Shown one piece after another: positions 23,645 to 36,195 of a DNA stretch of 64,000 bases; the stretch's first letter is position 1; each line of letters opens with the position of its first letter. The notes beneath the pieces were generated by a model. That model was not told where the DNA came from and did not search any database. It worked only from the letters and a program-made list of their open reading frames with translations. The position numbers were made by a program, and so were the translations under genes. The stretch comes from Ideonella sp. WA131b (GTDB taxonomy: Bacteria > Pseudomonadota > Gammaproteobacteria > Burkholderiales > Burkholderiaceae_C): contig JAGTJW010000001.1 of assembly GCA_023657425.1 (NCBI GenBank), positions 1,550,001 through 1,614,000 of the forward strand, in the 5' to 3' direction.

Positions 23645-24594
23645 AGCGGCGGCAATGGCTGCAGGGCGCGGCTGCTCTGGCGCTGGCCGCGCCGCTGGGC
23701 CTGCGCGCCCAAGGCACCGAAGCCGGTGCCTACGACACGCTGGACCTGGACTGGGCCGACACGGCGCGCCAGCGCCCGGTGCCCGTGCGCCTGTACCGAC
23801 CGCGCGCCATGGCGGCCGGCGCGCGGGTGCCGCTGATCGTGTTCTCGCACGGCATCGGCGGCTCGCGGCGCGGCTACACCTGGCTGGGGCGCTTCGTGGC
23901 GGCGCACGGCATCGCCAGCCTGCACCTGCAGCATGTGGGCAGCGACCGCACGCTGTGGAGCGGCGGGCTGTTCTCGCTGGTGGGCCGGCTGCAGGACGCT
24001 GCCCAGGCCGACGAGGCACTGGCGCGCGTGCGCGACTTCCGCTTTGCGCTCGACACGCTGCTGGCCGGCGAGTGGGGCTCGGCCATCGACCCGGCGCGCA
24101 TCGTCGCCGCCGGGCACAGCTACGGTGCCAACACCAGCCTGCTGGTGGCCGGCGCCCAGGTGCCGCAGGCCGGCGAAGCGCTGGCCGACCCGCGCGTGCG
24201 CGCGGCCATCGTCATGAGCGCGCCGCCCTTCTACGGCGAGCCCGAGCCCCGCCGCATCCTGCAGGGCGTGACCGTGCCCACCTTGCACGTGACCTGCACC
24301 GACGACGTCATCCGCATCCCCGGCTACTGGAGCGGCTTCGAAGACCGGTTGCAGGTGTTCGAGGCCACCGGCAGCCCCCGCAAGTGGCTTGCGGTGTTCG
24401 AAGGCGGCTCGCACAGCATCTTCACCGACCGTGCCGGCACGGGCGGCGCGCTGCTCAACCCGCAGGTCAAGCAGGCCACGCGCGAGCTGGCGCTGGCCTT
24501 CGTGCGGGGCGTGTTCGACGACGACTCGGGTGCGCTGACCCAGTGGCCGCGGCGCCACGCGGGCATCCTGGCGCGTTTCGAGGCGGCCGGCTGA
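23641..24594 (+). CDS. Exported alpha/beta hydrolase (dienelactone-hydrolase-like)
   Basis: A 317-residue protein with an N-terminal export signal (MKRRQWLQGAAALALAAPLGLRAQ; the RR-x-W-L pattern could be a Tat signal). The alpha/beta-hydrolase core has the oxyanion region IVFSHGIGGSRRGYTW and the nucleophile elbow AAGHSYGAN. A later Asp (TCTDDVIRIPG) and His (GGSHSIF) could complete the triad. GTG start, overlapping the RND stop (GTGA), so it is part of the efflux operon. Such enzymes cleave esters or lactones; here one may act on a compound related to the pump substrate, which is inference. Confidence 0.85.
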   Translation: MKRRQWLQGAAALALAAPLGLRAQGTEAGAYDTLDLDWADTARQRPVPVRLYRPRAMAAGARVPLIVFSHGIGGSRRGYTWLGRFVAAHGIASLHLQHVGSDRTLWSGGLFSLVGRLQDAAQADEALARVRDFRFALDTLLAGEWGSAIDPARIVAAGHSYGANTSLLVAGAQVPQAGEALADPRVRAAIVMSAPPFYGEPEPRRILQGVTVPTLHVTCTDDVIRIPGYWSGFEDRLQVFEATGSPRKWLAVFEGGSHSIFTDRAGTGGALLNPQVKQATRELALAFVRGVFDDDSGALTQWPRRHAGILARFEAAG

Positions 24595-24794
24595 GCGAGG
24601 GCAGGCTTCCCCGACCGCTCCTGGGCTCTCTGGTTCTCGAAGCAGGCGATGGGCTTGGGCGATTCGGCGCCTGGAGCCGGGCTGCCAAGCAAACGCCGCA
24701 ACAGGGCGCGGCAGCTGCGGGCCGCCGGGCGCCGATTCGCGAGAATCGGGCGTGCGAGCGCGTCGCCAGCGGTCGCCGTGAACCGGGGAGAAGA

Positions 24795-27700
24795 ATGACC
24801 CAGACCGACCGACAACAGCGGCTCGAAGCCACCCTGCTGGCGCTGCTGCCCGCCAGCGGCAGCCTGGTGGGCAACGGCAGCCTGCTCGCGCAGTGGACCC
24901 AGGCCGCGAGGGCAGCGGGCCTCGTCGTCACCGCCGAAGACTTCTCCGCCCTGCGTGAAGACCTGGTGGCCCGCGGGCTGGTGGTCAAGGGCAAGGGCCG
25001 CGGCGGCTCCACGGGCCGCGCCGCCGCCGCGGCAGCGGGCAGCGACACCTTCGCCCTGCAAGCCGAAGCGCCCGTGCCAGTGGATGGGGCCCATGCCGCC
25101 CCGAGCGGCCCCGCTGCCCAACCCCAGGCCCAGGCGGCTACGGCGCCCAAGGCCCAGAAGCTGCGCGCCGCCGATGCCGGCGAACCGGCCCAGGTGCTGA
25201 GCTACCGCCACGCCGACCGGCGCAAGAACAACCCCGAGGTGGGCCTGGTCAGCGAAGCCAGCGACCCGCAGCAACCGAAGCAGACCTGGGCATACAACCC
25301 GCACCTGGATCCGGTGCTGAACTTCGACAGCGCGCGGGCCGAGTTGGAGACGCTGATCGACGATGCGCTGGCCAGCGGCGATGCCGCCGCCGCACGGGCC
25401 GCGCTGGAAGAGATCAAGCGCCGCGGCGCGCCCTACCTGCAGTGGGCCGGCAAGGCCGAGCGCACCAGCTTCGAAGTGGACACGGTCAGCCTGCACGTGC
25501 ACGAGCGCATCGACCCGATGAGCATCCTTTCGGCCGTGCGCAAGCGGCTGGAAGAAGCGAACGACACCCAGGGCAAGGCGACGGCCAAGGTGAAGGCCGA
25601 AGAACCCTCACCCCTGGCCCGCCAGGCCAGCCTGTTCGAAGCGCCGTTCGAGAACCTGCCGCTGCGCAGCGCGGTGGACTTCTACCGCCACGACAAGGGC
25701 TGGGCCAACCGGCTGATCGCTGGCGACAGCCTGCTGGTGATGAACAGCCTGCTGGTCAAGGAGGGCCTGGCCGGGCAGGTGCAGATGATCTACATCGACC
25801 CGCCCTATGGCATCAGGTTTGGCTCGAACTTTCAGCCGTTTGTGGGCAAACGAGACGTCAAGGACCGCAGCGACGTAGACCTCACTCAAGAACCTGAGAT
25901 GGTGAAAGCGTTTCGCGACACCTGGGAGCTCGGGATCCACTCCTATCTGACCTATCTTCGCGACCGACTCCTGCTCGGCAAATCACTTCTCAATGACAGC
26001 GGAGTTGTATGCGTCCAGATCGGCGACGAGAACGTTCACCTGGTGCGCGCAGTACTAGACGAGGTGTTTGGTGCGCGAGCCTTCTACAGCCAAATCAGCG
26101 TCAAGAAGACCTCTGCGCAGACATCGGAAGGATTGCCTGGAAGCCTGGACTATGTCGTTGTCTATGCGCAGGACCGCAGCAAGGTCAAGTTCCGGCAACT
26201 CTATCGGGAGAAGGAAGCTGGCGGCTTCGGCGCGGACAAGTATCAATACACGATTGATCAGCTAGGGAGAACCAGGCGTGCTACGGAGGGTGCCCCACTA
26301 CCCATAGACACCCGTCTCTTCTCCATCGACACGCTGGTGTCCCAAAGGCCTCCGGGTGACTTCCCGGTCTCGTTCAATGGCCTGCTTCTTCGGCCCAAGA
26401 CTGGCTACTGGAAGACTGGGGAGTTGGGCTTTCCCCGCCTCATCAAGAGCAATCGCGTGCTGATGGGCGGTTCTGTCTTGATGTACCGCCGCCTCTTCGA
26501 AGATTTTCCAGCTGTGGCCTATTCCAACTACTGGGAAGACACAAGTAGTGGTGCTAGCAAGGCCGACCCCAAGGTATATGTCGTGCAGACAGCGACTAAG
26601 GTGGTCGAGCGGTGTCTACTCATGTTTACGGACCCTGGTGATCTGGTTCTGGATCCGACGTGCGGATCAGGTACCACAGCTTTTGCCGCCGAACGCTGGG
26701 GCCGCCGCTGGATCACCTGCGACACCTCGCGCGTGGCCGTCACGCTGGCCAAGCAGCGCCTGATGACGGCCAGCTACGACTACTACGAGCTGGCCTACCC
26801 GCACGAGGGCCTGAAGGGCGGCTTCATCTACAAGACGGTGCCGCACGTCACGCTGAAGTCCATCGCCAACAACGCGGACATCGACGCCATCCACGACCGG
26901 CTGCACCCGGCCATCGAGGCCGCGCTCGCCGCGCTGAACGCCGCGCTGGCGCAGCACCCACCGGCCGAGCCCTTGGCCGTGAGCGAGGGCGTGCGCAAGG
27001 GCCAGAAGCTGGCGCTGGGCAAGCAGGGTGTTGCGCTTCATGAGTGGGAAGTGCCGTTCCCCACGGACGACGGCTCACTGCCCACCGGCTGGCCCGACGC
27101 GCTGCGTGAGCCCTTTGGCGCCTTCCACGCCGCCCGCCAACGCATGCAGGCCGAGATGGACCGCTCCATCGCCGCCAACGCCGACAGCGAGACGCTGGTC
27201 GACAAGCCCGAGCCCAGCAAGACCAAGCTGCGCATCACCGGCCCGTTCACGGTGGAAGCGGTGCCCTTCCCCACCGTGCTGAGCCTGGAGGCGGCAGAAG
27301 GCGGCGCTGCCGCCACGCCGTCGGAAGACCAGTCGTACCAGACCAGCATCGCACGCAGCGGCGAAACCAGCCGCCAGCAGCAGTGGCGCGACGAGCTGCT
27401 GAAGACCGGCATCCGAGGCAAGGGTGGGCAGATGCTGAAGTTCGCCGAGCTGGAGGTGATGGCCGGCACCACCTGCCTGCACGCCACGGGCACCTTGGCG
27501 GAAAGCGGCGAACGCGCGGTGGTGAGCTTCGGCCCCGAGCACGGCGCGCTGGAACAGCGGCAGGTGGAGCACGCCATCGGCGAAGCGGGCGAGCTGTTCC
27601 CGCGGCCGAAGATGATCGTGTTCTGCGCCTTCACCTTCGACCCCGAGGCCGCGAAGGACATCGACGCCTTCAAGGGCATCACCGCGCTGAAGGCGCAGAT

Positions 27701-28142
27701 GAACACCGACCTGCTGACCGAAGACCTGAAGAAGGCCCGCTCGAGCAACCAGAGCTTCTGGTTGATGGGCCAGCCCGAGGTGCAGGCCACAAGGCGGCCC
27801 GACGGCCGCTGGCAGGTGGAGGTGATGGGCTTCGACTACTTCGACACCGTGAAGGGCGAGCTCATCTCCGGCGGCAAGTCCAAGATCGCCATGTGGAGCC
27901 TGGACACCGACTACGACGGCCGCAGCCTCTTCCCGCACCAGGTGTTCTTTCCCATGGCGGGCAGAGACGAAGGCTGGCGCAAGCTGAAGAAGAGCATCCG
28001 CGCCGAACTGGATGAAGCCCTGCTGGAGCAGTTCCACGGCACGGTTTCGCTGCCCTTCGAGGCGGGCAAGAACGGCAAGGCGGCGGTGAAGATCGTCGAC
28101 GATCGGGGCATTGGCCTTGCCCCTGAAAAACGTAGTCCATAG
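24795..28142 (+). CDS. Type III-like site-specific DNA methyltransferase (Mod), C-terminus altered by an IS
   Basis: A 1115-residue beta-class DNA methyltransferase. The catalytic motif IV, D335-P-P-Y, lies in YIDPPYGIRFGSN, and the SAM-binding motif I is D620-PTCGSGTT. The IV-before-I order and DPPY suggest N6-adenine methylation. Residues 1-75 form a helical, possibly winged-helix region; 75-130 is an Ala/Pro linker; the C-terminal 400 residues are conserved-looking accessory domains. ATG at 24795 follows GGGGAG. The last nine residues come from the IS3 end; before insertion the protein ran 14 residues further (to 29466) for 1120. Bases 25815-26690 are distinctly AT-richer. It is the modification partner of the res gene at 31228. 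Confidence 0.9.
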   Translation: MTQTDRQQRLEATLLALLPASGSLVGNGSLLAQWTQAARAAGLVVTAEDFSALREDLVARGLVVKGKGRGGSTGRAAAAAAGSDTFALQAEAPVPVDGAHAAPSGPAAQPQAQAATAPKAQKLRAADAGEPAQVLSYRHADRRKNNPEVGLVSEASDPQQPKQTWAYNPHLDPVLNFDSARAELETLIDDALASGDAAAARAALEEIKRRGAPYLQWAGKAERTSFEVDTVSLHVHERIDPMSILSAVRKRLEEANDTQGKATAKVKAEEPSPLARQASLFEAPFENLPLRSAVDFYRHDKGWANRLIAGDSLLVMNSLLVKEGLAGQVQMIYIDPPYGIRFGSNFQPFVGKRDVKDRSDVDLTQEPEMVKAFRDTWELGIHSYLTYLRDRLLLGKSLLNDSGVVCVQIGDENVHLVRAVLDEVFGARAFYSQISVKKTSAQTSEGLPGSLDYVVVYAQDRSKVKFRQLYREKEAGGFGADKYQYTIDQLGRTRRATEGAPLPIDTRLFSIDTLVSQRPPGDFPVSFNGLLLRPKTGYWKTGELGFPRLIKSNRVLMGGSVLMYRRLFEDFPAVAYSNYWEDTSSGASKADPKVYVVQTATKVVERCLLMFTDPGDLVLDPTCGSGTTAFAAERWGRRWITCDTSRVAVTLAKQRLMTASYDYYELAYPHEGLKGGFIYKTVPHVTLKSIANNADIDAIHDRLHPAIEAALAALNAALAQHPPAEPLAVSEGVRKGQKLALGKQGVALHEWEVPFPTDDGSLPTGWPDALREPFGAFHAARQRMQAEMDRSIAANADSETLVDKPEPSKTKLRITGPFTVEAVPFPTVLSLEAAEGGAAATPSEDQSYQTSIARSGETSRQQQWRDELLKTGIRGKGGQMLKFAELEVMAGTTCLHATGTLAESGERAVVSFGPEHGALEQRQVEHAIGEAGELFPRPKMIVFCAFTFDPEAAKDIDAFKGITALKAQMNTDLLTEDLKKARSSNQSFWLMGQPEVQATRRPDGRWQVEVMGFDYFDTVKGELISGGKSKIAMWSLDTDYDGRSLFPHQVFFPMAGRDEGWRKLKKSIRAELDEALLEQFHGTVSLPFEAGKNGKAAVKIVDDRGIGLAPEKRSP
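25815..26690 (+). other. AT-rich block in mod 1: putative exchanged target-recognition domain
   Basis: Between motif IV and motif I of this methyltransferase, composition drops from about 72-77% GC in flanking lines to 55-57% in three 60-base lines I counted by hand (from 25861, 26221 and 26581). Rare-looking codons (TTA-, ATA- and CTC-rich) appear and end near 26690. This is where the target-recognition domain of beta-class enzymes lies. The edges are approximate. Confidence 0.65.
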
Positions 28143-28143
28143 C
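28112..28143 (+). repeat. Left terminal inverted repeat of the IS3 element
   Basis: Begins TGGCCTTGCCCCTG and ends ACGTAGTCCATAGC. It matches the complement of 29386-29417 except for AAAA versus TCCG in the middle. It also contributes the altered end and TAG stop of the mod gene. Confidence 0.92.
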
Positions 28144-28176
28144 TGATGATGAAATCACAGAGATGGAGCACGAGAG

Positions 28177-28482
28177 ATGAGCAAGCAAGAAGGCAAGCGC
28201 CGCAGGGCGAGGTACACGTTGGAGTTCAAGCTGGAGGCGGTCAGGCTGGTCAAGGGCGGGCAGGACGCGGCCGTGACGGCACGGGTTCTGGACATCCCGA
28301 AGGCCACGCTGGGCAACTGGATCAGGGCGGCCGAGAAGGGTGAACTGCAAGGCGCTGGGGACAGGCCGGTCAGTGCCGAGCAGATGGAGTTGGCGCGGCT
28401 GCGGGCGGAGCTGGCGCGGGTCAAGATGGAGCGCGACATCTTAAAAAAAGCGACGGCGTACTTCGCGAAGGAGTCACTGTGA
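28177..28482 (+). CDS. IS3 transposase OrfA (helix-turn-helix subunit)
   Basis: A 101-residue DNA-binding protein of the IS3 transposase. The N-terminal HTH region reads YTLEFKLEAVRLVKGGQDAAVTARVLDIPKATLGNW, here residues 13-48. A leucine-zipper-like helix follows (MELARLRAELARVKMERDIL), ending in the family hallmark ILKKATAYFAKES. The tail contains a run of seven A then G at 28443-28450, a slippery site. A -1 shift there enters the OrfB frame without meeting a stop, so an OrfAB fusion transposase is likely. Confidence 0.93.
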   Translation: MSKQEGKRRRARYTLEFKLEAVRLVKGGQDAAVTARVLDIPKATLGNWIRAAEKGELQGAGDRPVSAEQMELARLRAELARVKMERDILKKATAYFAKESL

Positions 28483-29378
28483 AGTACGCCTGGATCGACA
28501 AGCTCAAGACGGTGTGGCCCGTCACGCTGATGTGCCAGGTGCTGGGGGTGAGCGTCAGCGGTTTCTTCGAGCACCGCCAGCGCAGCAGCAAGGCAGCACC
28601 GCCGGAGCCCGGCCCCAGGCGTGTAAGCAACGAGGCCCTGGTAGCGCACATCCGCGCGATCCACGCCGAATTCAAGGGCGAGTACGGCTGGCCCCGGGTG
28701 TGGAAGGAACTCCTGGCCAGGGGCGTGCGGGTAGGCAAAGACCGGGTGCAGCGGCTGATGAAGATGCACAACATCCGGGCGCGCGGCAAGAGGAAGTTCG
28801 TCGTCACCACAGACAGCAAGCACAGCCTGCCGGTGGCCGAGAACCTGCTGGCCAGGGACTTCACGCCCGAAGCACCAGACCGCGTCTGGAGCAGCGACAT
28901 CACCTACATCGCCACCGATGAGGGCTGGCTGTACCTGGCGGCGGTGATCGACCTGTTCAGCCGCCAGGTGGTGGGCTGGAGCATGCAGCCGCACATGCAG
29001 ACCAGCCTGGTGACGGATGCGCTGCGCATGGCGTGGTTCAGGCGACACCCAGAACCCGGACTGATCTTCCACAGCGACCGTGGCAGCCAGTACTGCAGCC
29101 ATGACTTCCAGGCCGCTCTGAAGGGCTATGGGATGCGAAGCTCAATGAGCCGCAAGGGCAACTGCTGGGACAATGCGCCCACGGAAAGCCTGTGGGGCAG
29201 CCTGAAGGTCGGGCGGCTGTACGGTAAGCGGTTTGCCACCCACCGCGAGGCGATGGACGAGGTGATCGACTGGTTGACGTTCTACAACCACCGGCGGCTG
29301 CACTCCACACTGGGCTACATCAGCCCCATGAAGTTCGAAGCCAACTGGCGCGCGGGCCAGGTCAAGAAAGCCGCGTAA
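28479..29378 (+). CDS. IS3 transposase OrfB (DDE integrase domain)
   Basis: A 299-residue catalytic subunit of the IS3 transposase with an rve-type integrase core. The DDE triad is visible: Asp in WSSDITYIAT, Asp in FHSDRGSQYCS and Glu in NAPTESLWGSLK. An HTH_21-like segment (IHAEFKGEYGWPRVWKELLARG) precedes the core. The GTG at 28479 overlaps the OrfA stop (GTGA), and the frame is -1 relative to OrfA, as expected for IS3 elements. All catalytic residues are intact. Confidence 0.94.
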   Translation: MKYAWIDKLKTVWPVTLMCQVLGVSVSGFFEHRQRSSKAAPPEPGPRRVSNEALVAHIRAIHAEFKGEYGWPRVWKELLARGVRVGKDRVQRLMKMHNIRARGKRKFVVTTDSKHSLPVAENLLARDFTPEAPDRVWSSDITYIATDEGWLYLAAVIDLFSRQVVGWSMQPHMQTSLVTDALRMAWFRRHPEPGLIFHSDRGSQYCSHDFQAALKGYGMRSSMSRKGNCWDNAPTESLWGSLKVGRLYGKRFATHREAMDEVIDWLTFYNHRRLHSTLGYISPMKFEANWRAGQVKKAA

Positions 29379-29385
29379 CCGAGTG

Positions 29386-29417
29386 GCTATGGACTACGTC
29401 GGACAGGGGCAAGGCCA
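29386..29417 (-). repeat. Right terminal inverted repeat of the IS3 element
   Basis: The complement of this stretch begins TGGCCTTGCCCCTG and matches the left end over 28 of 32 bases. The CAT at 29418-29420 follows directly and duplicates the target. Confidence 0.92.
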
Positions 29418-29466
29418 CATCGAGTCGCTGAAGATCCTGCCGCTGCTGCCCGCCAACGGCGGCTGA
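29418..29466 (+). pseudogene. Detached 3' end of the mod gene
   Basis: After one copy of CAT is removed, the codons here continue the Mod frame as ESLKILPLLPANGG and stop at 29464-29466, 14 bases before the AAA ATPase start. This orphaned tail shows that mod was directly followed by the ATPase gene before the IS arrived. Confidence 0.85.
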
Positions 29467-29480
29467 ACAAGAGATCCACC

Positions 29481-30680
29481 ATGCAGATCGAATCCATCCG
29501 CCTGAAGAACTTCCGCGCCTTCCGCGACGTGACGCTGAAGGACGTGCCGCGCTTTTGCGTGCTGGTGGGCGCCAACGGCTCGGGCAAGAGCACGCTGTTC
29601 TCGGTGTTTGCCTTCCTGCGCGATGCGATGCAGGGCAACGTGACTTCGGCTTTGGCCAAGCTGGGCGGCAGCCGCGGGCTGCAGGAAGTGCGCAGTCGCG
29701 GTGCCGAGGGCCCCATCGAGATCGAACTGAAGATTCGGACCGACATCGACACCCACCGCACCAGCAAGCTCATCACCTACGAACTGCACATTGACGAAGA
29801 GGGGGGCCGCGCGGTGGTGGTGCGAGAGGTGCTGCGATACCGGCGGGGCAGCAGCGGAAAGCCCTGGCGGTTCCTGGATTTCTCGCGCGGTGCCGGCGAA
29901 GCCGTGACCAACGAGCTCGATTCTGTGGCAGACGAAAGCAAGCTCACGCGAGAGTCACAGACGCTGAAGAGCCCAGACATCCTGGCCATCAAGGGGCTGG
30001 CCCAATTCGAGCGGTTTCCCGCCGTCGTGGCGCTGGGCAACCTGATCGAGAACTGGCACCTGTCGGACTTCCACATCAGCCGCGCCCGGCCCGAGGTCGA
30101 GGCCGGCTACGCAGACCACTTGAGCCGCGAAGGCGAAAACCTGTCGCTCGTCGTGGAGTACCTGCATCGCCAGCACCCGATGCTCTTTGCGCAGATCCTG
30201 GATCGACTCCAGCATCGGGTGCCCGGCATCACCAGCGTGCAGGCCAAGACCACCGAGGAAGGGCGAGTGCTGCTGAAGTTCTCGGACGGTGCGTTCGAGG
30301 ATCCGTTTCTGGCCCGCTTCGTGTCCGACGGCACGATCAAGATGCTGGCCTACCTGGTGCTGCTGTATGACCCCGCACCCCACCCGCTGCTGTGCGTGGA
30401 GGAGCCTGAGAACCAGCTCTACCCTTCGCTGTTGTGGGACCTGGCCGAGGAGTTCCGCGGCTACGCGGTGCGCGGCGGACAGGTGTTCGTTTCGACCCAT
30501 TCGCCGGACTTCCTGAATGCGGTGAAGCTCGACGAGGTGTTCTGGCTGGCCAAGGAAGGCGGCTACACCCGCATCCATCGAGCGGCAGACGACGAGCAGC
30601 TGGCGGCGTACATGGCCGCTGGTGACCGCATGGGTTACTTGTGGAAGGAAGGACTGCTGACCGGGGCCGACCCACGATGA
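29481..30680 (+). CDS. AAA/ABC-type ATPase (RloA/RecF-like) of the defence island
   Basis: A 399-residue ATPase of the SMC/RecF-like group. It starts with MQIESIRLKNFRAFRDVTL, typical of 'AAA_15/AAA_21' proteins. Walker A is GANGSGKST (K36), Walker B is LLCVEEPENQLYP near residue 305, and STHSPDFLNAV gives the switch histidine. No nuclease domain is fused to it. The stop overlaps the next gene, a TOPRIM-like protein. ATPase plus separate TOPRIM resembles a split OLD nuclease, and R-linked rloA/rloB pairs are known inside type I hsd loci. It is probably a sensor/regulator of the neighbouring nuclease; this is inference. Confidence 0.88.
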   Translation: MQIESIRLKNFRAFRDVTLKDVPRFCVLVGANGSGKSTLFSVFAFLRDAMQGNVTSALAKLGGSRGLQEVRSRGAEGPIEIELKIRTDIDTHRTSKLITYELHIDEEGGRAVVVREVLRYRRGSSGKPWRFLDFSRGAGEAVTNELDSVADESKLTRESQTLKSPDILAIKGLAQFERFPAVVALGNLIENWHLSDFHISRARPEVEAGYADHLSREGENLSLVVEYLHRQHPMLFAQILDRLQHRVPGITSVQAKTTEEGRVLLKFSDGAFEDPFLARFVSDGTIKMLAYLVLLYDPAPHPLLCVEEPENQLYPSLLWDLAEEFRGYAVRGGQVFVSTHSPDFLNAVKLDEVFWLAKEGGYTRIHRAADDEQLAAYMAAGDRMGYLWKEGLLTGADPR

Positions 30681-31231
30681 GGCACCTTGTTTTCCTGTTG
30701 GAAGGGCCGTCCGAGAAGGAGGCCTTGCAGGCGTGGCTGCCCAGCTTGCTTCCCGCCGACGTAAAGCCGCACTTCATCATCTTCGAGGGCAAGCAGGACA
30801 TGGAGCGGCGCATGGTCCTGAAGCTGCGGCATTGGATGCAGCCGCAATCTCGGTTTCTCGTCCTGCGAGACCAGGACAGCGGCGATTGCCTGGATGTGAA
30901 AGAGGCACTCCGAAAACGCTGCGTGGAGGCCGGGCGCAGCGATGCGGTCGTGCGGGTGGCTTGTCACGAGCTTGAGAACTTCTTTCTCGGCGACTGGGCC
31001 GCCGTGGCAAGGGCGTTTGGTCGCCCCAGCCTGGCCGACCTGGACCGTAGGGCGATTTTTCGGGATCCGGACCGCATCGCGGCGCCGGAGGCCGAGTTGA
31101 GGCGCCACCTTCCGAGCTACCAGAAGCGTGAAGGAGCGCGGCGCATTGCGCCGCACATGGACCTGCGCCGCAACCGCTCGCGCAGTTTCGGCCATCTGCG
31201 CGACGCCATCATCCGCATGGTGCAGCCGTGA
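30677..31231 (+). CDS. DUF4276 / TOPRIM-like putative nuclease of the defence island
   Basis: A 184-residue protein of the DUF4276 type. The N-terminus HLVFLLEGPSEKEAL and the later FLVLRDQDSGDC match the TOPRIM pattern, with a Glu after the first strand and a DxD after the third, as in OLD-family and RloB-like nucleases. HELENFFLGDWAAVARAF is also typical of DUF4276. The ATG overlaps the ATPase stop (ATGA), and its own stop overlaps the res start (GTGA), so the three are translated as one unit. Metal-dependent nucleic-acid cleavage is predicted from the motifs, not shown. Confidence 0.82.
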   Translation: MRHLVFLLEGPSEKEALQAWLPSLLPADVKPHFIIFEGKQDMERRMVLKLRHWMQPQSRFLVLRDQDSGDCLDVKEALRKRCVEAGRSDAVVRVACHELENFFLGDWAAVARAFGRPSLADLDRRAIFRDPDRIAAPEAELRRHLPSYQKREGARRIAPHMDLRRNRSRSFGHLRDAIIRMVQP

Positions 31232-34071
31232 AGCGCCCCGGCAACGTCATCATCAACTCGCCCTTCGAGGCACCGCGCCGGCATTGGCAGCCGCAGCGCG
31301 ACGGCACCTTGACGCTGGTGGATGATCGCCGCCCGGCCAGCTATGAGATCTACGACGTCCGCAACAACACGCGGCGCGTGGAGACGCTGGACCAGGTGAA
31401 CGAGATTCGCCAGCGCGTGGACCGCTGGCGTGCGGACGACTACCCGGGCGTCACGGCCATCACCCGGCAGCTGCTGACCCATTGGCATGACCAGGGCGCG
31501 CGGCAGTACCCGTTCTACTTCTGCCAGCTGGAAGCCATCGAGACGCTGATCTGGTGGGTGGAGGCAACTGACGCCTACCGTCAAGGCGTGTTCCTGCAAG
31601 GCGACGGCGGGCTCTGGGAACGCGTGTGCAGCAAGATGGCCACCGGCTCGGGCAAGACCACGGTGATGGCGATGCTCATCACCTGGCAAGTGCTGAACGC
31701 CGTGACGTACCCGAAGCGGCCACGCGACTTCTCGCCCGCCATCTTCATCGTGGCGCCGGGCCTGACCGTGAAGGAACGCCTGCAGGTGCTGCTGCCCGGC
31801 AACCCAGCCAACGCCTATGACGAGTTCTCGACCTGCCCGTCGGAGTCGCTGCGGCAGAAGCTCAACCAGGCCGAGGTGCTGGTGGAGAACTGGCACACGC
31901 TGATGCCGGCGAAGGAGCCGGACCGCTCGGTGGTCAAGAAGGGGCGCGAGACCGACGAGGTCTACACGCGGCGCGTGCTGGGCCAGCTGGCACAGCACCG
32001 CGACATCGTGGTGATCAACGACGAGGCGCACCACGCCTACCGCAAGCCGGCCGATGTGAAGATCAGCAAGGCGGATGCGGAACGACTGGGCCTGGACCTG
32101 GACGAGGCCACGCGCTGGATCGAAGGCCTGGACCGTATCCACCACACGCGGCGCATCGGCCGCTGCTTCGACTTGTCGGCGACGCCGTTTGCGCCCACCG
32201 GCAAGACCAACAGCGAGGAAGGCCTCTTCAGCTGGATCGTCAGCGACTTTGGCCTGACCGACGCCATCGAGGCGGGTCTGGTGAAGACCCCGCGCGTGGT
32301 GATCCGGGATGATGCGCTGCCGGATGCCAAGAGCTATCGCTCCAAGCTCTACCACCTGTACCGCGACCCCGATGTGCAGGAAGACCTGAACCGGCGGGGC
32401 GCCGAGCCCCATGAGGCGCTGCCCAAGCTGGTTCAGGATGCCTACACGCTGCTGGGCGCCGACTGGCGCGTGGCCCTGCACGACTGGCAAATGGCAGGGC
32501 ACCACTCGCCACCCGTGATGCTGACCGTGTGCAACCGCGTGGAGACCGCGGCACGCGTCGAGCACTACCTCAACCATGGCGACGCGCACTGGCCGGAGCT
32601 GAAGTCGCCGGAGCAGACCCTGCGCGTGGACTCCAAGGTGCTGGAGAAGGCCGAGATGGGCGAGAAGGCCTCATCGGTCGCGCCCGAGTACGTGAGCCGC
32701 CTGCGGGAGATCGTGCGAGCAGCCCGGTTGCCGGCCGACCGCGAGGCGCGGCTGCTGGCCCTGGACAAGGAAGACCTGCTGCGCGCCATCGTGGACAACG
32801 TGGGCAAGCATGGGCAGGCGGGTCAGCGCCTGCAGAGCGTGATCTCGGTGGCGATGTTGTCCGAGGGCTGGGACGCGAAGAACGTCACCCACATCATGGG
32901 CCTGCGTGCCTTCACGAGCCAGTTGCTTTGCGAGCAGGTGATCGGCCGCGGCCTGCGCCGCGTGGGTTACGACAAGGACGAGAACGGCCTCTTCGTGCCT
33001 GAATACGTGAACGTGTTTGGCGTTCCTTTGTCGGTGTTCGTTGACGCAGGCGACGGCGGCGAGACGCCACCGCCGCCGAAGCCGAGCACCCAGATCGAGT
33101 CGCTGCCCTGGCGCAACGAGTTCGAGGTGCGGTGGCCCAATCTGCTGCGGGTGGACACGGTGGTCAAGCCGGCGCTGTCGGTGCAGTGGTCGAAGGTCGG
33201 CGATCTGCATCTGGATCCGGCGCAGACCGTGATCACGGCCGAACTCGCGCCGGCGGTGGGTGGTGCCACCGACCTGAGCAAGACGACCCACATCGACCTC
33301 AGCAAGCTGCCCGAGGAGTTTCGGGAGCAACGCATTGTGTTTCAGGCAGCACGCAAGGCGTTCGATCAGATCGCCGGCAAGTTCACCGGGAACCGGGAGT
33401 ACCTGGTGTTCCAGCTCATCCGGCTGGTGGAGCAGTTGCTGGCTTCGACGAAGCTGGTGATTCCGAGCCTGTTCCATGCCGGAAGCGTTAGGCGCCGTAT
33501 CCTGGTGGCGCTGAACATGGACCTCATCGTGCAACACGTGGTGAAGCACCTGGCGCAGCAGAACGTCGCGAGCATCGAGCCGGTGTTCGACCCGGAGCAG
33601 CCCATTGGCAGCACCCGGGCGATGCGCACCTGGTTCACCACCAAAGGCAACCAGCAGACGCGGAAGTCCCAGATCAGCCACGTGGTCGGCGACAGTTCCT
33701 GGGAGATCTATGCCGCCACCTTGTTCGATGCCAGCGACAAGGTGCAGGCCTACGCCAAAAACGACCATCTCGGGTTCCAGGTCTACTACCTCTGGGGAGG
33801 CTCGCGCAAACGATTCATCCCCGATTTCATCGTGCGTCTGGCCAATGGACACAACCTTGTGCTGGAGATCAAGGGAGAAGACTCGCCCATGAACAGCGCC
33901 AAGCGCGACGCGCTGGCGCTTTGGGTGAAGGCCGTGAACGCCAAGGGCGGGTTCGGCCGCTGGTGCAGCGACGTGGCGTTCAAGCCGGCGGAGCTTCAAG
34001 ACATCCTGAGCCGGCACGCGCATGGCAACCAACCCGACGACGTTGCGGCGAAAGTGCCGTTCACCCCATGA
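31228..34071 (+). CDS. Type III-like restriction subunit: SF2 helicase with PD-(D/E)XK nuclease
   Basis: A 947-residue restriction protein. The helicase half has Walker A ATGSGKTT (K143), the DEAH box NDEAHHAY (D265) and SATPFAPTG. Motif VI lies in QVIGRGLRR. The C-terminal nuclease is visible as PDFIVRL (D866) followed by LEIKGED (E880, K882), a complete PD-ExK site. It resembles the 'BPTD_3080' restriction-enzyme family I recall from Bordetella. GTG start, coupled to the DUF4276 gene. With the mod at 24795 it should recognise and cut DNA lacking the host methylation. Confidence 0.9.
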   Translation: MKRPGNVIINSPFEAPRRHWQPQRDGTLTLVDDRRPASYEIYDVRNNTRRVETLDQVNEIRQRVDRWRADDYPGVTAITRQLLTHWHDQGARQYPFYFCQLEAIETLIWWVEATDAYRQGVFLQGDGGLWERVCSKMATGSGKTTVMAMLITWQVLNAVTYPKRPRDFSPAIFIVAPGLTVKERLQVLLPGNPANAYDEFSTCPSESLRQKLNQAEVLVENWHTLMPAKEPDRSVVKKGRETDEVYTRRVLGQLAQHRDIVVINDEAHHAYRKPADVKISKADAERLGLDLDEATRWIEGLDRIHHTRRIGRCFDLSATPFAPTGKTNSEEGLFSWIVSDFGLTDAIEAGLVKTPRVVIRDDALPDAKSYRSKLYHLYRDPDVQEDLNRRGAEPHEALPKLVQDAYTLLGADWRVALHDWQMAGHHSPPVMLTVCNRVETAARVEHYLNHGDAHWPELKSPEQTLRVDSKVLEKAEMGEKASSVAPEYVSRLREIVRAARLPADREARLLALDKEDLLRAIVDNVGKHGQAGQRLQSVISVAMLSEGWDAKNVTHIMGLRAFTSQLLCEQVIGRGLRRVGYDKDENGLFVPEYVNVFGVPLSVFVDAGDGGETPPPPKPSTQIESLPWRNEFEVRWPNLLRVDTVVKPALSVQWSKVGDLHLDPAQTVITAELAPAVGGATDLSKTTHIDLSKLPEEFREQRIVFQAARKAFDQIAGKFTGNREYLVFQLIRLVEQLLASTKLVIPSLFHAGSVRRRILVALNMDLIVQHVVKHLAQQNVASIEPVFDPEQPIGSTRAMRTWFTTKGNQQTRKSQISHVVGDSSWEIYAATLFDASDKVQAYAKNDHLGFQVYYLWGGSRKRFIPDFIVRLANGHNLVLEIKGEDSPMNSAKRDALALWVKAVNAKGGFGRWCSDVAFKPAELQDILSRHAHGNQPDDVAAKVPFTP

Positions 34072-34116
34072 CAGGCACCTGCCGATGATCCCCCGCCTCG
34101 CTCAGCTGCTTTCGTC

Positions 34117-36195
34117 TTGAACGCCCCCGTCCCCATGTCGCTCAACGACGCGCAGATGCGCGCCGTGCACCACCTGGGCGGACCCTGCCTGGTGCTGGCC
34201 GGCGCCGGCTCGGGCAAGACACGCGTCATCGTGCACAAGATCGCGCGGCTGCTGCAGGCGGGCCTGGCGCCGAAGAACATCGCCGCCATCACCTTCACCA
34301 ACAAGGCCGCGGCCGAGATGCGCGAGCGCGCCAAGGCGCTGGTGGGCCCGCGCGCGGCGCGCGACCTCGCCATCAGCACCTTCCACTCGCTCGGGGTGCG
34401 CATGCTGCGCGAGAGCGGCCAGAAGGTCGGCCTGAAGCAGAACTTCAGCATCCTCGACAGCGACGACGTGCTCGGCGTGCTGCGCGACGCCGGGGGCACC
34501 ACCGACGCCGCGCTGGCGCGCCGCTGGCAGTGGGCCATCAGCCTGTGGAAGAACCAGGGGCTCGATGCCGACGGCGCGGAAGGCCAGGCACAGAACGACG
34601 ACGAGCGCGTGGCCGCGCGCGTGATGCGCCGCTACCAGGAGCGGCTCTCGGCCTACCAGGCGGTGGACTTCGACGACCTGATCGGCCTGCCCCGGGCGCT
34701 GCTGCAGCGCGACGCCGAGGAACGCGAACGCTGGCAGGCGCAGTTCGGCCACGTGCTGGTGGACGAGTACCAGGACACCAACGCCGTGCAGTACGAGCTG
34801 ATGAAGGCGCTGGTGGGCGAGCAGGCGCTGTTCACCGCGGTGGGCGACGACGACCAGAGCATCTACGGCTGGCGCGGCGCCACCATCGACAACCTGAAGC
34901 GCTTGCCGCAGGAGTTTCCTCGGCTCACGGTCATCCCGCTGGAGCAGAACTACCGCAGCACCGGGCACATCCTGCGCGCCGCCAACGCGGTGATCGCGGC
35001 CAACCCCAAGATCTTCGAGAAGAAGCTCTGGAGCGAGCTCGGCGACGGCGAGCCCGTGCGCGTGGTGCAGTGCGACAACGAGGAACACGAGGCCGAGCGC
35101 GCGGTGGCGCGCATCCAGAGCCTGAGGGCCGGGGCCGTGGGGCAGGGCGGGGCGGTGAAGCTCTCGGACTTCGCCATCCTCTACCGCGCCAACCACCAGG
35201 CGCGCGTGTTCGAGCAGAAACTGCGCGCCGCGCAGCTGCCGTACAAGGTGAGTGGCGGGCAGAGCTTCTTCGACCGCGCCGAGATCAAGGACCTTTGCGC
35301 CTGGCTGCGGCTGCTGGTGAACCCCGACGACGACCCCGCCTTCCTGCGTGCCGTGACCACGCCCAAGCGCGGCATCGGCCACACCACGCTGGGCAGCCTG
35401 GGCGAGTTCGCGGCGAAGTGGAAGGTGAGCCTGTTCGAGGCCTTGTTCAGCCCCACGCTGCCGGCCGTTCTCAAGGGCAAGGCGGTCGAGCTGCTGCACG
35501 ACTTCGGGCGCGAGGTGAACGAACTGCAGCACCGCGCCGGGCACACCCGCGGCGCCGAAGATGCCAAGGCGCTGCTGCTGGGCTGGCTCAAGGACATCGG
35601 CTACGAGCAGCACCTCTACGACGGCGAAGACAGCGAGAAGCTCGCCGCCTCGCGCTGGACCAACGTGCTCGACTTCGTCGACTGGATCGCGCGGCGCTGC
35701 GGCGGCGAAATCCGCAACGACGGCGGCCTGACGGAAGAGACCGAGCGCCAGACCGTGCTGCAGGTGGCGCAGACCATCAGCATCATCATCAGCCTGGCCG
35801 AGCGCGACACCGAGCAGGACGTGATCACGCTGTCCACGCTGCACGCCGCCAAGGGCCTGGAGTGGCCGCACGTGGTGCTGGCGGGCGTCAACGAGGGGCT
35901 GCTGCCGTTCAGGAGCGGCGATGACGACATGACGCCCGAGCGGCTGGAGGAAGAGCGCCGCCTGATGTACGTGGGCATCACGCGCGCGCGCCTCACGCTC
36001 ACCGTGAGCACGCTGATGCGGCGCACGAAGGGCCGCGACACGGTGGCCGGCGTTCCGAGTCGCTTCATCGCCGAGATGAAGCTCGAGGAGGCCGGCGCCC
36101 GCGAAGACCCGCGCGAGCGGCTCAAGCGGCTTCGCGCCGAGCTCGTCGCCAAGGTCGCCGCCTCGGCCGAGGCGCTGAAGTCGGCAGCCTCCTGA
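34117..36195 (+). CDS. rep: ATP-dependent DNA helicase Rep/UvrD family
   Basis: A 692-residue SF1A helicase that unwinds DNA 3'-5' in replication restart and repair. Walker A is LAGAGSGKTRVIV, motif II DEYQDTNAVQ, motif III VGDDDQSIYGWRGA and motif VI RRLMYVGITRARLTL. The length and YRSTGHILRAANAVIAAN favour Rep over UvrD. The TTG at 34117 gives MNAPVPMSLNDAQ; the ATG at 34135 is an equal alternative, and no strong ribosome-binding site decides. It follows the res gene by 45 bases but is probably core genome, marking the right edge of the island. Confidence 0.93.
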   Translation: MNAPVPMSLNDAQMRAVHHLGGPCLVLAGAGSGKTRVIVHKIARLLQAGLAPKNIAAITFTNKAAAEMRERAKALVGPRAARDLAISTFHSLGVRMLRESGQKVGLKQNFSILDSDDVLGVLRDAGGTTDAALARRWQWAISLWKNQGLDADGAEGQAQNDDERVAARVMRRYQERLSAYQAVDFDDLIGLPRALLQRDAEERERWQAQFGHVLVDEYQDTNAVQYELMKALVGEQALFTAVGDDDQSIYGWRGATIDNLKRLPQEFPRLTVIPLEQNYRSTGHILRAANAVIAANPKIFEKKLWSELGDGEPVRVVQCDNEEHEAERAVARIQSLRAGAVGQGGAVKLSDFAILYRANHQARVFEQKLRAAQLPYKVSGGQSFFDRAEIKDLCAWLRLLVNPDDDPAFLRAVTTPKRGIGHTTLGSLGEFAAKWKVSLFEALFSPTLPAVLKGKAVELLHDFGREVNELQHRAGHTRGAEDAKALLLGWLKDIGYEQHLYDGEDSEKLAASRWTNVLDFVDWIARRCGGEIRNDGGLTEETERQTVLQVAQTISIIISLAERDTEQDVITLSTLHAAKGLEWPHVVLAGVNEGLLPFRSGDDDMTPERLEEERRLMYVGITRARLTLTVSTLMRRTKGRDTVAGVPSRFIAEMKLEEAGAREDPRERLKRLRAELVAKVAASAEALKSAAS

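Follow-up and report, generated by a model that had tools for sequence, protein, structure and literature searches.

We propose that the genes described here form a type III-like restriction-modification operon with a cargo slot at the mod/res junction, and that the slot is occupied in this strain by a split OLD-type back-up module of the HEC-01 family; we consider this reading moderately probable. The operon is found in a 64,000-nucleotide stretch of DNA from Ideonella sp. WA131b (contig JAGTJW010000001.1, positions 1,550,001 to 1,614,000 of the forward strand), which is referred to as the window and whose numbering is used throughout. The pair of genes in the slot was already known as a candidate defense system. 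By contrast, no description of a type III-like mod/res junction that serves as a slot for interchangeable contents was found in the literature searched.

Organization of the Operon

The features of the operon are as follows.

24589–34121, no strand: whole unit, annotated as inserted, about 9.5 kb including the insertion sequence (IS), between a hydrolase gene and a rep-type helicase gene
24795–28142, + strand: mod, type III-like N6/N4 adenine-type methyltransferase (Pfam, PADLOC, and PDB matches)
25875–26595, + strand: probable target-recognition region of mod, codons about 360–600 (synonymous difference from locus L161)
28112–29417, + strand: IS3-like insertion sequence (ends from the sequence and the alignment to L161)
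28177–28482, + strand: orfA of the IS3-like element
28479–29378, + strand: orfB of the IS3-like element
29418–29466, + strand: severed 3' end of mod, with stop codon TGA at 29464–29466 (alignment to L161)
29481–30680, + strand: ABC-type (AAA_21) ATPase of the HEC-01 pair, 399 residues (Pfam, PADLOC, predicted model)
30677–31231, + strand: DUF4276 protein, candidate Toprim-fold nuclease of the HEC-01 pair, 184 residues (Pfam, PADLOC, predicted model)
31228–34071, + strand: res, helicase-nuclease of the BPTD_3080 family, 947 residues (NCBIfam NF046055, Pfam ResIII)

A preliminary description of this DNA had placed a type III-like mod and res on either side of a tightly coupled ATPase-Toprim pair, and this arrangement was borne out. 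The positions of the four genes, both 4-base overlaps, and the 14-base distance between mod and the ATPase gene were all confirmed from the sequence. The start codon of mod is the ATG at 24795. The ATPase and DUF4276 genes overlap by the four bases ATGA (30677–30680), and the DUF4276 gene and res overlap by the four bases GTGA (31228–31231). Before the IS entered, the mod stop codon at 29464–29466 was separated by 14 bases from the ATG of the ATPase gene at 29481, and the same gap is found in the IS-free locus L035 from the same genus.

The protein encoded by mod matches the Pfam family N6_N4_Mtase (1.4e-26), the PADLOC model MTase_III (3.2e-161), and the type III Mod chains 6k0w and 4zcf from the PDB. 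As read from its sequence, the motif DPPY precedes DPTCGSG with a variable block between the two, which is the order of the β-type N6 methyltransferases. When mod is aligned with L161, the segment at 25875–26595 retains 38–64% nucleotide identity per 60-codon block, and its flanks retain 83–99%. Res scores 1120 bits against the NCBIfam model NF046055 (BPTD_3080 family; cutoff 800) and matches Pfam ResIII at 2.9e-9; the PADLOC models for type III endonucleases (REase_III) match only weakly. The sequence of Res contains GSGKTT, DEAH, SATPF, and PDF...EIKG, which may be the motifs of an SF2 helicase and a C-terminal PD-(D/E)XK nuclease. Judged from their families, Mod would methylate host sites and Res would be an ATP-driven helicase-nuclease. 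The gene order resembles that of the EcoP15I-type type III systems, in which a β-type Mod is followed by a helicase-nuclease Res, but the Mod of the window has 1105+ residues and its Res is a BPTD_3080-family protein with a weak fit to the PADLOC type III models. A second, distant relative of Res is encoded in the same genome (L164, contig C1, 1408000–1420000; about 31% identity over its length, or 37–38% in two pieces), with no match to mod on that stretch.

The operon is interrupted by an IS3-like element of 1306 bp. The trinucleotide CAT is found at 28109–28111 and again at 29418–29420, and this is the 3-bp target duplication. In L161, which is on the same contig as L035 and represents the same locus, positions 28111 and 29418 of the window map to 5449 and 5447, so that the IS is absent and the two ends overlap by 3 bases. 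The insertion is recent, since three more full-length copies with 100% identity, together with one partial copy, are found elsewhere in the genome. The open reading frame of mod now extends to 28142; the genuine mod sequence stops at 28111 and is derived from the IS from 28112 onward. Mod has thereby lost about 14 C-terminal residues and gained a few that are encoded by the IS. The pair and res are now located 3' of the IS, which stands between them and the mod promoter and may have deprived them of it; the unit may therefore be partly silent in this strain. A promoter scan of 24550–34200 returned no promoters and three terminator-like sites, fewer than the mean for shuffled sequence, and is uninformative for this genome.

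In two genomes of the same genus (G031, locus L186, and G036, locus L187), the genes that flank the unit adjoin one another, with about 62 and 200 nucleotides, respectively, left unmatched between them. The whole unit was either inserted at this site or lost from these two genomes. G031 lacks the unit at this chromosomal site, yet it carries its own mod-res operon elsewhere (L149) with different cargo. No near-identity match to 29481–34071 was found among plasmid records.

The ATPase and DUF4276 Proteins

The ATPase matches Pfam AAA_21 (2.3e-28) and, over its full length, the PADLOC profile PDLC04144 (2.8e-199). The DUF4276 protein matches Pfam DUF4276 (7.9e-16) and, again over its full length, PDLC04143 (5.9e-66). 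Both of these are HEC-01 profiles, and the two genes are adjacent, as is expected for HEC-01, with a 4-base overlap. The A/B labels of the two profiles look swapped: here HEC-01A denotes the DUF4276 protein and HEC-01B the ATPase, whereas the remaining HEC-01 profiles that were matched use the letters the other way round. According to the available text of PMC12988326, HEC stands for Hma-embedded candidate, a designation that goes back to a survey based on guilt-by-embedding (the preprint of Payne et al. 2024, cited therein). The pair in the window is likewise embedded in a methylation-based defense operon. However, its berth is made up of an MTase_III-type mod and a BPTD_3080 res rather than an Hma operon. 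Since the relative in L079 does lie in an Hma setting, where it is flanked by hmaB and hmaC and preceded by a single small gene, the pair in the window is a member of the HEC-01 family in another berth.

The predicted model of the DUF4276 protein (pLDDT 96.3) is closest to the Toprim domain of OLD (6nk8), with a Z score of 12.0 and an rmsd of 3.7 over 167 residues. Foldseek returned no match to this model at E ≤ 0.001 (best, 2.7e-3), and no sequence relative was found in the PDB (best E, 0.38). The model of the ATPase (pLDDT 83.2) resembles the heads of SMC, Rad50, PtuA, and OLD with Z scores of 17–19, and Foldseek matches reach an E value of 4.9e-11. AriA is absent among the fold matches listed for the ATPase model, which excludes nothing. 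Residues E9, D65, and D67 of the Toprim protein are invariant in the 57 rows of alignment A1 (56 of 58 usable Toprim references plus the window) and correspond to the catalytic E and DxD of the fold. The P-loop, a signature-like SDG, the EE motif, and H340 of the ATPase are invariant in the 49 rows of alignment A2 (48 of 77 ATPase references plus the window), the pattern of an ABC/SMC-type ATPase. On the basis of the predicted folds and the invariant catalytic residues, the pair is a split OLD-type module of the same general kind as PARIS, with a putative nuclease as its second component.

In PARIS, as described in the available portions of PMC9122126 and PMC12409363, the ATPase AriA detects the anti-restriction protein Ocr, and AriB cleaves tRNA. 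The pair in the window shares with PARIS an OLD-type ATPase and a Toprim protein encoded by separate, adjacent genes in a defense setting near restriction genes, and the AriA profile matches the ATPase at 5.6e-28. The Toprim protein differs in that it is DUF4276 and not DUF4435 (DUF4276 is the only Pfam match at E ≤ 0.01). By analogy, PARIS is the most likely model for the mechanism of the pair.

The mean column identity is 81% for the ATPase against 59% for the Toprim protein, as calculated from different sets of rows. This difference suggests a constant ligand for the ATPase, such as DNA ends, together with a diversifying effector; it is hard to reconcile with a phage protein as the trigger, since an arms race with such a protein would not be expected to leave this pattern. 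The same observation bears on an alternative in which the pair would function in a damage response, with the Rad50/SMC-like ATPase sensing DNA ends, among them the ends that Res produces, while the Toprim protein completes the destruction of the cut phage DNA. The predicted structure of the ATPase indeed comes nearest to the SMC and Rad50 heads, and far stronger conservation of the ATPase than of the Toprim protein across loci would be expected for a constant ligand. However, a resemblance to SMC heads is common to the ATPases of OLD, PtuA, and Gabija and indicates no particular ligand, and pairs located outside of restriction operons would have no such partner. We consider a damage response to be improbable.

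Distribution of the Pair and Contents of the mod/res Junction

A scan of genome contigs returned 563 relatives of the ATPase, and the best 80 were taken for comparison; counts on this set favor close relatives because only the best-matching loci were kept. The ATPase lies between relatives of the mod and res of the window in 12 of these best 80 of 563 loci, which are distributed among the Pseudomonadota, the Thermodesulfobacteriota, and one record labeled Myxococcota. The four-gene order thus extends beyond the strain of the window, and the possibility that it is confined to this strain, which would have told against the preliminary description, did not hold. No Toprim gene was recognized in one of the 12 loci (L010). 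In L035, mod and the ATPase gene are 14 bases apart; in the other 11 loci the distance is 2–4 bases. Of the 11 relatives with a recognized Toprim gene, 6 show a 4-base overlap (ATGA or GTGA) between this gene and res. The ATPase and Toprim genes overlap by 4 bases in 51 of the best 80 of 563 loci, are spaced differently in 24 as measured from the homologous start, and have no Toprim match in the remaining 5. The recurrence of these overlaps and of the gene order indicates that the arrangement in the window is no coincidence.

In the other 68 of the best 80 of 563 loci, the ATPase gene has no close relative of the mod-res pair of the window beside it. Some of these pairs are embedded in other methylation-based systems, directly downstream of the methylase gene. 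The pair is located straight behind the methylase gene in a BREX arrangement (pglX-pair-pglZ) in L030 and, by cluster, in L073. It is found behind an HmaB-like methylase and followed by an HmaA/DrmD-like helicase in L037 and, by cluster, in L045, L050, L051, L054, and L063. A classical type III mod-pair-res order is present in L070, and the pairs of L039 and L067 adjoin classical type III res genes. No host system could be named for 58 of the best 80 of 563 loci, some of which may sit in unrecognized systems; the gene upstream of the pair in L053, L067, and L076 looked housekeeping-like from its sequence. In a sample drawn from the order (399 genomes), 23 genomes contain a relative of Res (E ≤ 1e-80) and 8 contain one of the ATPase (E ≤ 1e-100); the genome of the window is the only one that contains both.

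The junction between mod and res was then compared in loci retrieved with Res. This set contains 23 loci with a Res identity of at least about 49% and a visible junction: 11 from genome searches, 3 from viral contigs, and 9 from plasmid records (best 9 of 28). Six loci were left out of the count: L151 (mod off the stretch), L158, L160, and L166 (distant, with res before mod), and L159 and L165 (distant), as was L164 from the genome of the window itself (no mod match). The junction is empty in 15 of the 23 loci, holds a pair of the window type in one (L161), and holds other cargo in seven. These proportions are not frequencies, since 12 of the 15 empty loci belong to one clade and identical or nearly identical plasmid copies are among the 15. 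In the empty junctions, 31–53 nucleotides separate the matched ends.

The cargo of the remaining seven loci is diverse. Another HEC-01 subfamily is found in L152, and the A and B genes of PD-T4-4 are found in L154, with ATGA on both sides of the second gene. L176 encodes an NsnB/HEC-03B-like ATPase together with a 232-residue protein, L153 a 626-residue Schlafen/AlbA_2-HATPase protein, and L150 a ParE-type toxin-antitoxin pair. L162 (7302–7781) encodes a protein of 160 residues without a Pfam match, and a nearly identical one is encoded in L149; both loci are from the same genus as the window. The 160-residue protein has an apparent hydrophobic stretch near its start, and its gene overlaps mod by GTGA and res by ATGA. 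In the distant locus L159 (34% Res identity), outside of the 23, the junction gene matches PDC-S01. PD-T4-4 is a two-gene system named in PMC9519451; its homologues fill the same junction as the pair in the window, but they belong to other ATPase and small-protein families. The mod/res junction is therefore a cargo slot with exchangeable contents.

On the ATPase tree, the label "between window-type mod and res" requires 7 changes, at least 5 of which are forced by well-supported branches, and a single ancient capture of the pair is thus unsupported. The seven states of the slot require 10 changes on the Res tree, where the smallest supported clade around the window contains the pair in two loci, the small protein in two, and an empty junction in one. 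Judged from these trees, the contents of the slot have repeatedly been gained, lost, and exchanged.

In comparison with L161, the operon of the window proves to be a mosaic. The synonymous difference amounts to 0.76 in the probable recognition region of mod, compared with about 0.2 for the mod blocks on either side. It is 0.19 in the 3' part of mod and 0.11 in the first 60 codons of the ATPase gene, 0.51 in the rest of the ATPase gene and 0.60 in the Toprim gene, and then 0.23 in the first 420 codons of res and 0.43 in the second half of res. The cassette made up of the ATPase gene from codon 60 and the Toprim gene differs by 0.54 against 0.29 for its flanks, a contrast that was reached by 0 of 5000 permutations and by 6 of 2033 circular shifts. 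Of the 78 pairs that can be formed from 13 operons, 75 have a higher identity in the ATPase than in Res. L035, whose ATPase branch is long, is a member of each of the other three, and by far the strongest of these is the pair of the window with L035 (−15 points). Exchange is the better reading of the cassette contrast, though not the sole one: given the raised value in the second half of res and the long ATPase branch of L035, simple acceleration of the pair is an alternative. The recognition region of mod is probably a second exchanged cassette of the operon, beside the pair.

Proposed Function of the Pair

We propose that Mod and Res provide the first line of defense and that the embedded pair would provide the second. 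The ATPase would act as a sensor or regulator that restrains the DUF4276 Toprim protein, a putative metal-dependent nuclease. Upon infection, most likely when a phage blocks or survives restriction, the ATPase would free or activate the Toprim protein, which would then cleave nucleic acid (tRNA or DNA) and arrest the infected cell. The searches connected no particular trigger with the pair. With the pair located between mod and res, its translation would proceed in step with that of Res, and the back-up would be made and moved together with the front line.

The preliminary description had offered two possible roles for the pair: a back-up that acts when restriction is overcome, or a gate on Res. 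The first is supported in outline, because unrelated, back-up-like effectors (PD-T4-4, the Schlafen/AlbA_2 protein, the ParE toxin-antitoxin pair, and another HEC-01 pair) take the same junction, and because the available text of PMC12839542 surveys OLD-ATPase/Toprim modules in operons of BREX and related types and proposes them as back-ups against anti-restriction. The OLD-ABC/TOPRIM modules of those operons are of the same type and are also embedded, but that survey, as far as its available text extends, covers BREX and BR systems, whereas the host operon of the window is a BPTD_3080-family mod-res. Embedded back-ups as such have thus been proposed before, in published work on BREX-type operons. 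A type III-like mod/res slot with exchangeable fillings was not found described in the literature searched, which did not include preprints and most subscription papers.

The identification of the junction as a cargo slot favors a back-up over a gate. Relatives of Res and Mod with 50–78% Res identity have an empty junction or other genes there, and the pair occurs without the Mod and Res of the window in 68 of the best 80 of 563 loci. Gating of Res as the main reading is thus less likely, and the same findings lend no support to the four genes as one coupled unit, if an invariable machine of four parts is meant by this. The broader form of this alternative is that the pair belongs to the restriction machinery itself, where it gates or assists Res or reads the methylation by Mod, and that it is co-translated because the products assemble together. 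In its favor are the 4-base overlaps by which the Toprim gene is joined to both of its neighbors, in the window and in 6 of 11 relatives, and the location of the pair immediately after the methylase gene of several unrelated systems. However, proteins that are 76–78% identical to the Res of the window have the small protein or nothing at this position (L149, L156, and L162), and unrelated cargo overlaps its neighbors in the same manner (by GTGA and ATGA in L162, and by ATGA at each end of the second cargo gene in L154). These findings, with the many pairs that lack a window-type Mod and Res, make a part in the restriction machine quite improbable.

It is also conceivable that the slot is nothing other than a safe, expressed berth in which cargo hitch-hikes, or is retained by addiction because its loss breaks the operon or harms the cell, with no link to restriction. 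The occupants are unrelated to one another and include a ParE-type toxin-antitoxin pair of the ordinary kind (L150). Judged from the empty sites in L186 and L187, moreover, the entire unit has the behavior of a mobile island. Nevertheless, most of the identified occupants are from known or candidate phage-defense families (HEC-01, PD-T4-4, NsnB-like, and AlbA_2), and the same pair recurs within several methylation-based defense systems. We regard hitch-hiking as unlikely, though deserving of serious attention.

The proposal of a back-up module in a cargo slot can be taken one step further, and we do so tentatively, as a possibility rather than as the expected outcome. The mod/res junction may be a dedicated guard slot for unrelated, interchangeable effectors, each of them translated together with Res and unleashed when Mod-Res is disabled. 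These effectors would include split OLD pairs of several families, the Schlafen-type protein, the toxin-antitoxin pair, and the small protein. The recognition region of mod and the guard, represented here by the ATPase-Toprim pair, would then be two independently exchanged cassettes of a modular immune operon.

Back-up effectors in BREX-type operons are now recognized, and PARIS is such a module that is able to sense anti-restriction proteins. A two-gene restriction-modification system with a cargo slot between its genes would be a simpler and more tractable version of the back-ups embedded in BREX-type operons. A single mod-res backbone is found with many natural fillings, including none at all, and this makes the idea that the cargo guards the front line testable in one host. 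Reading the contents of mod/res junctions would also be a cheap way to find defense genes.
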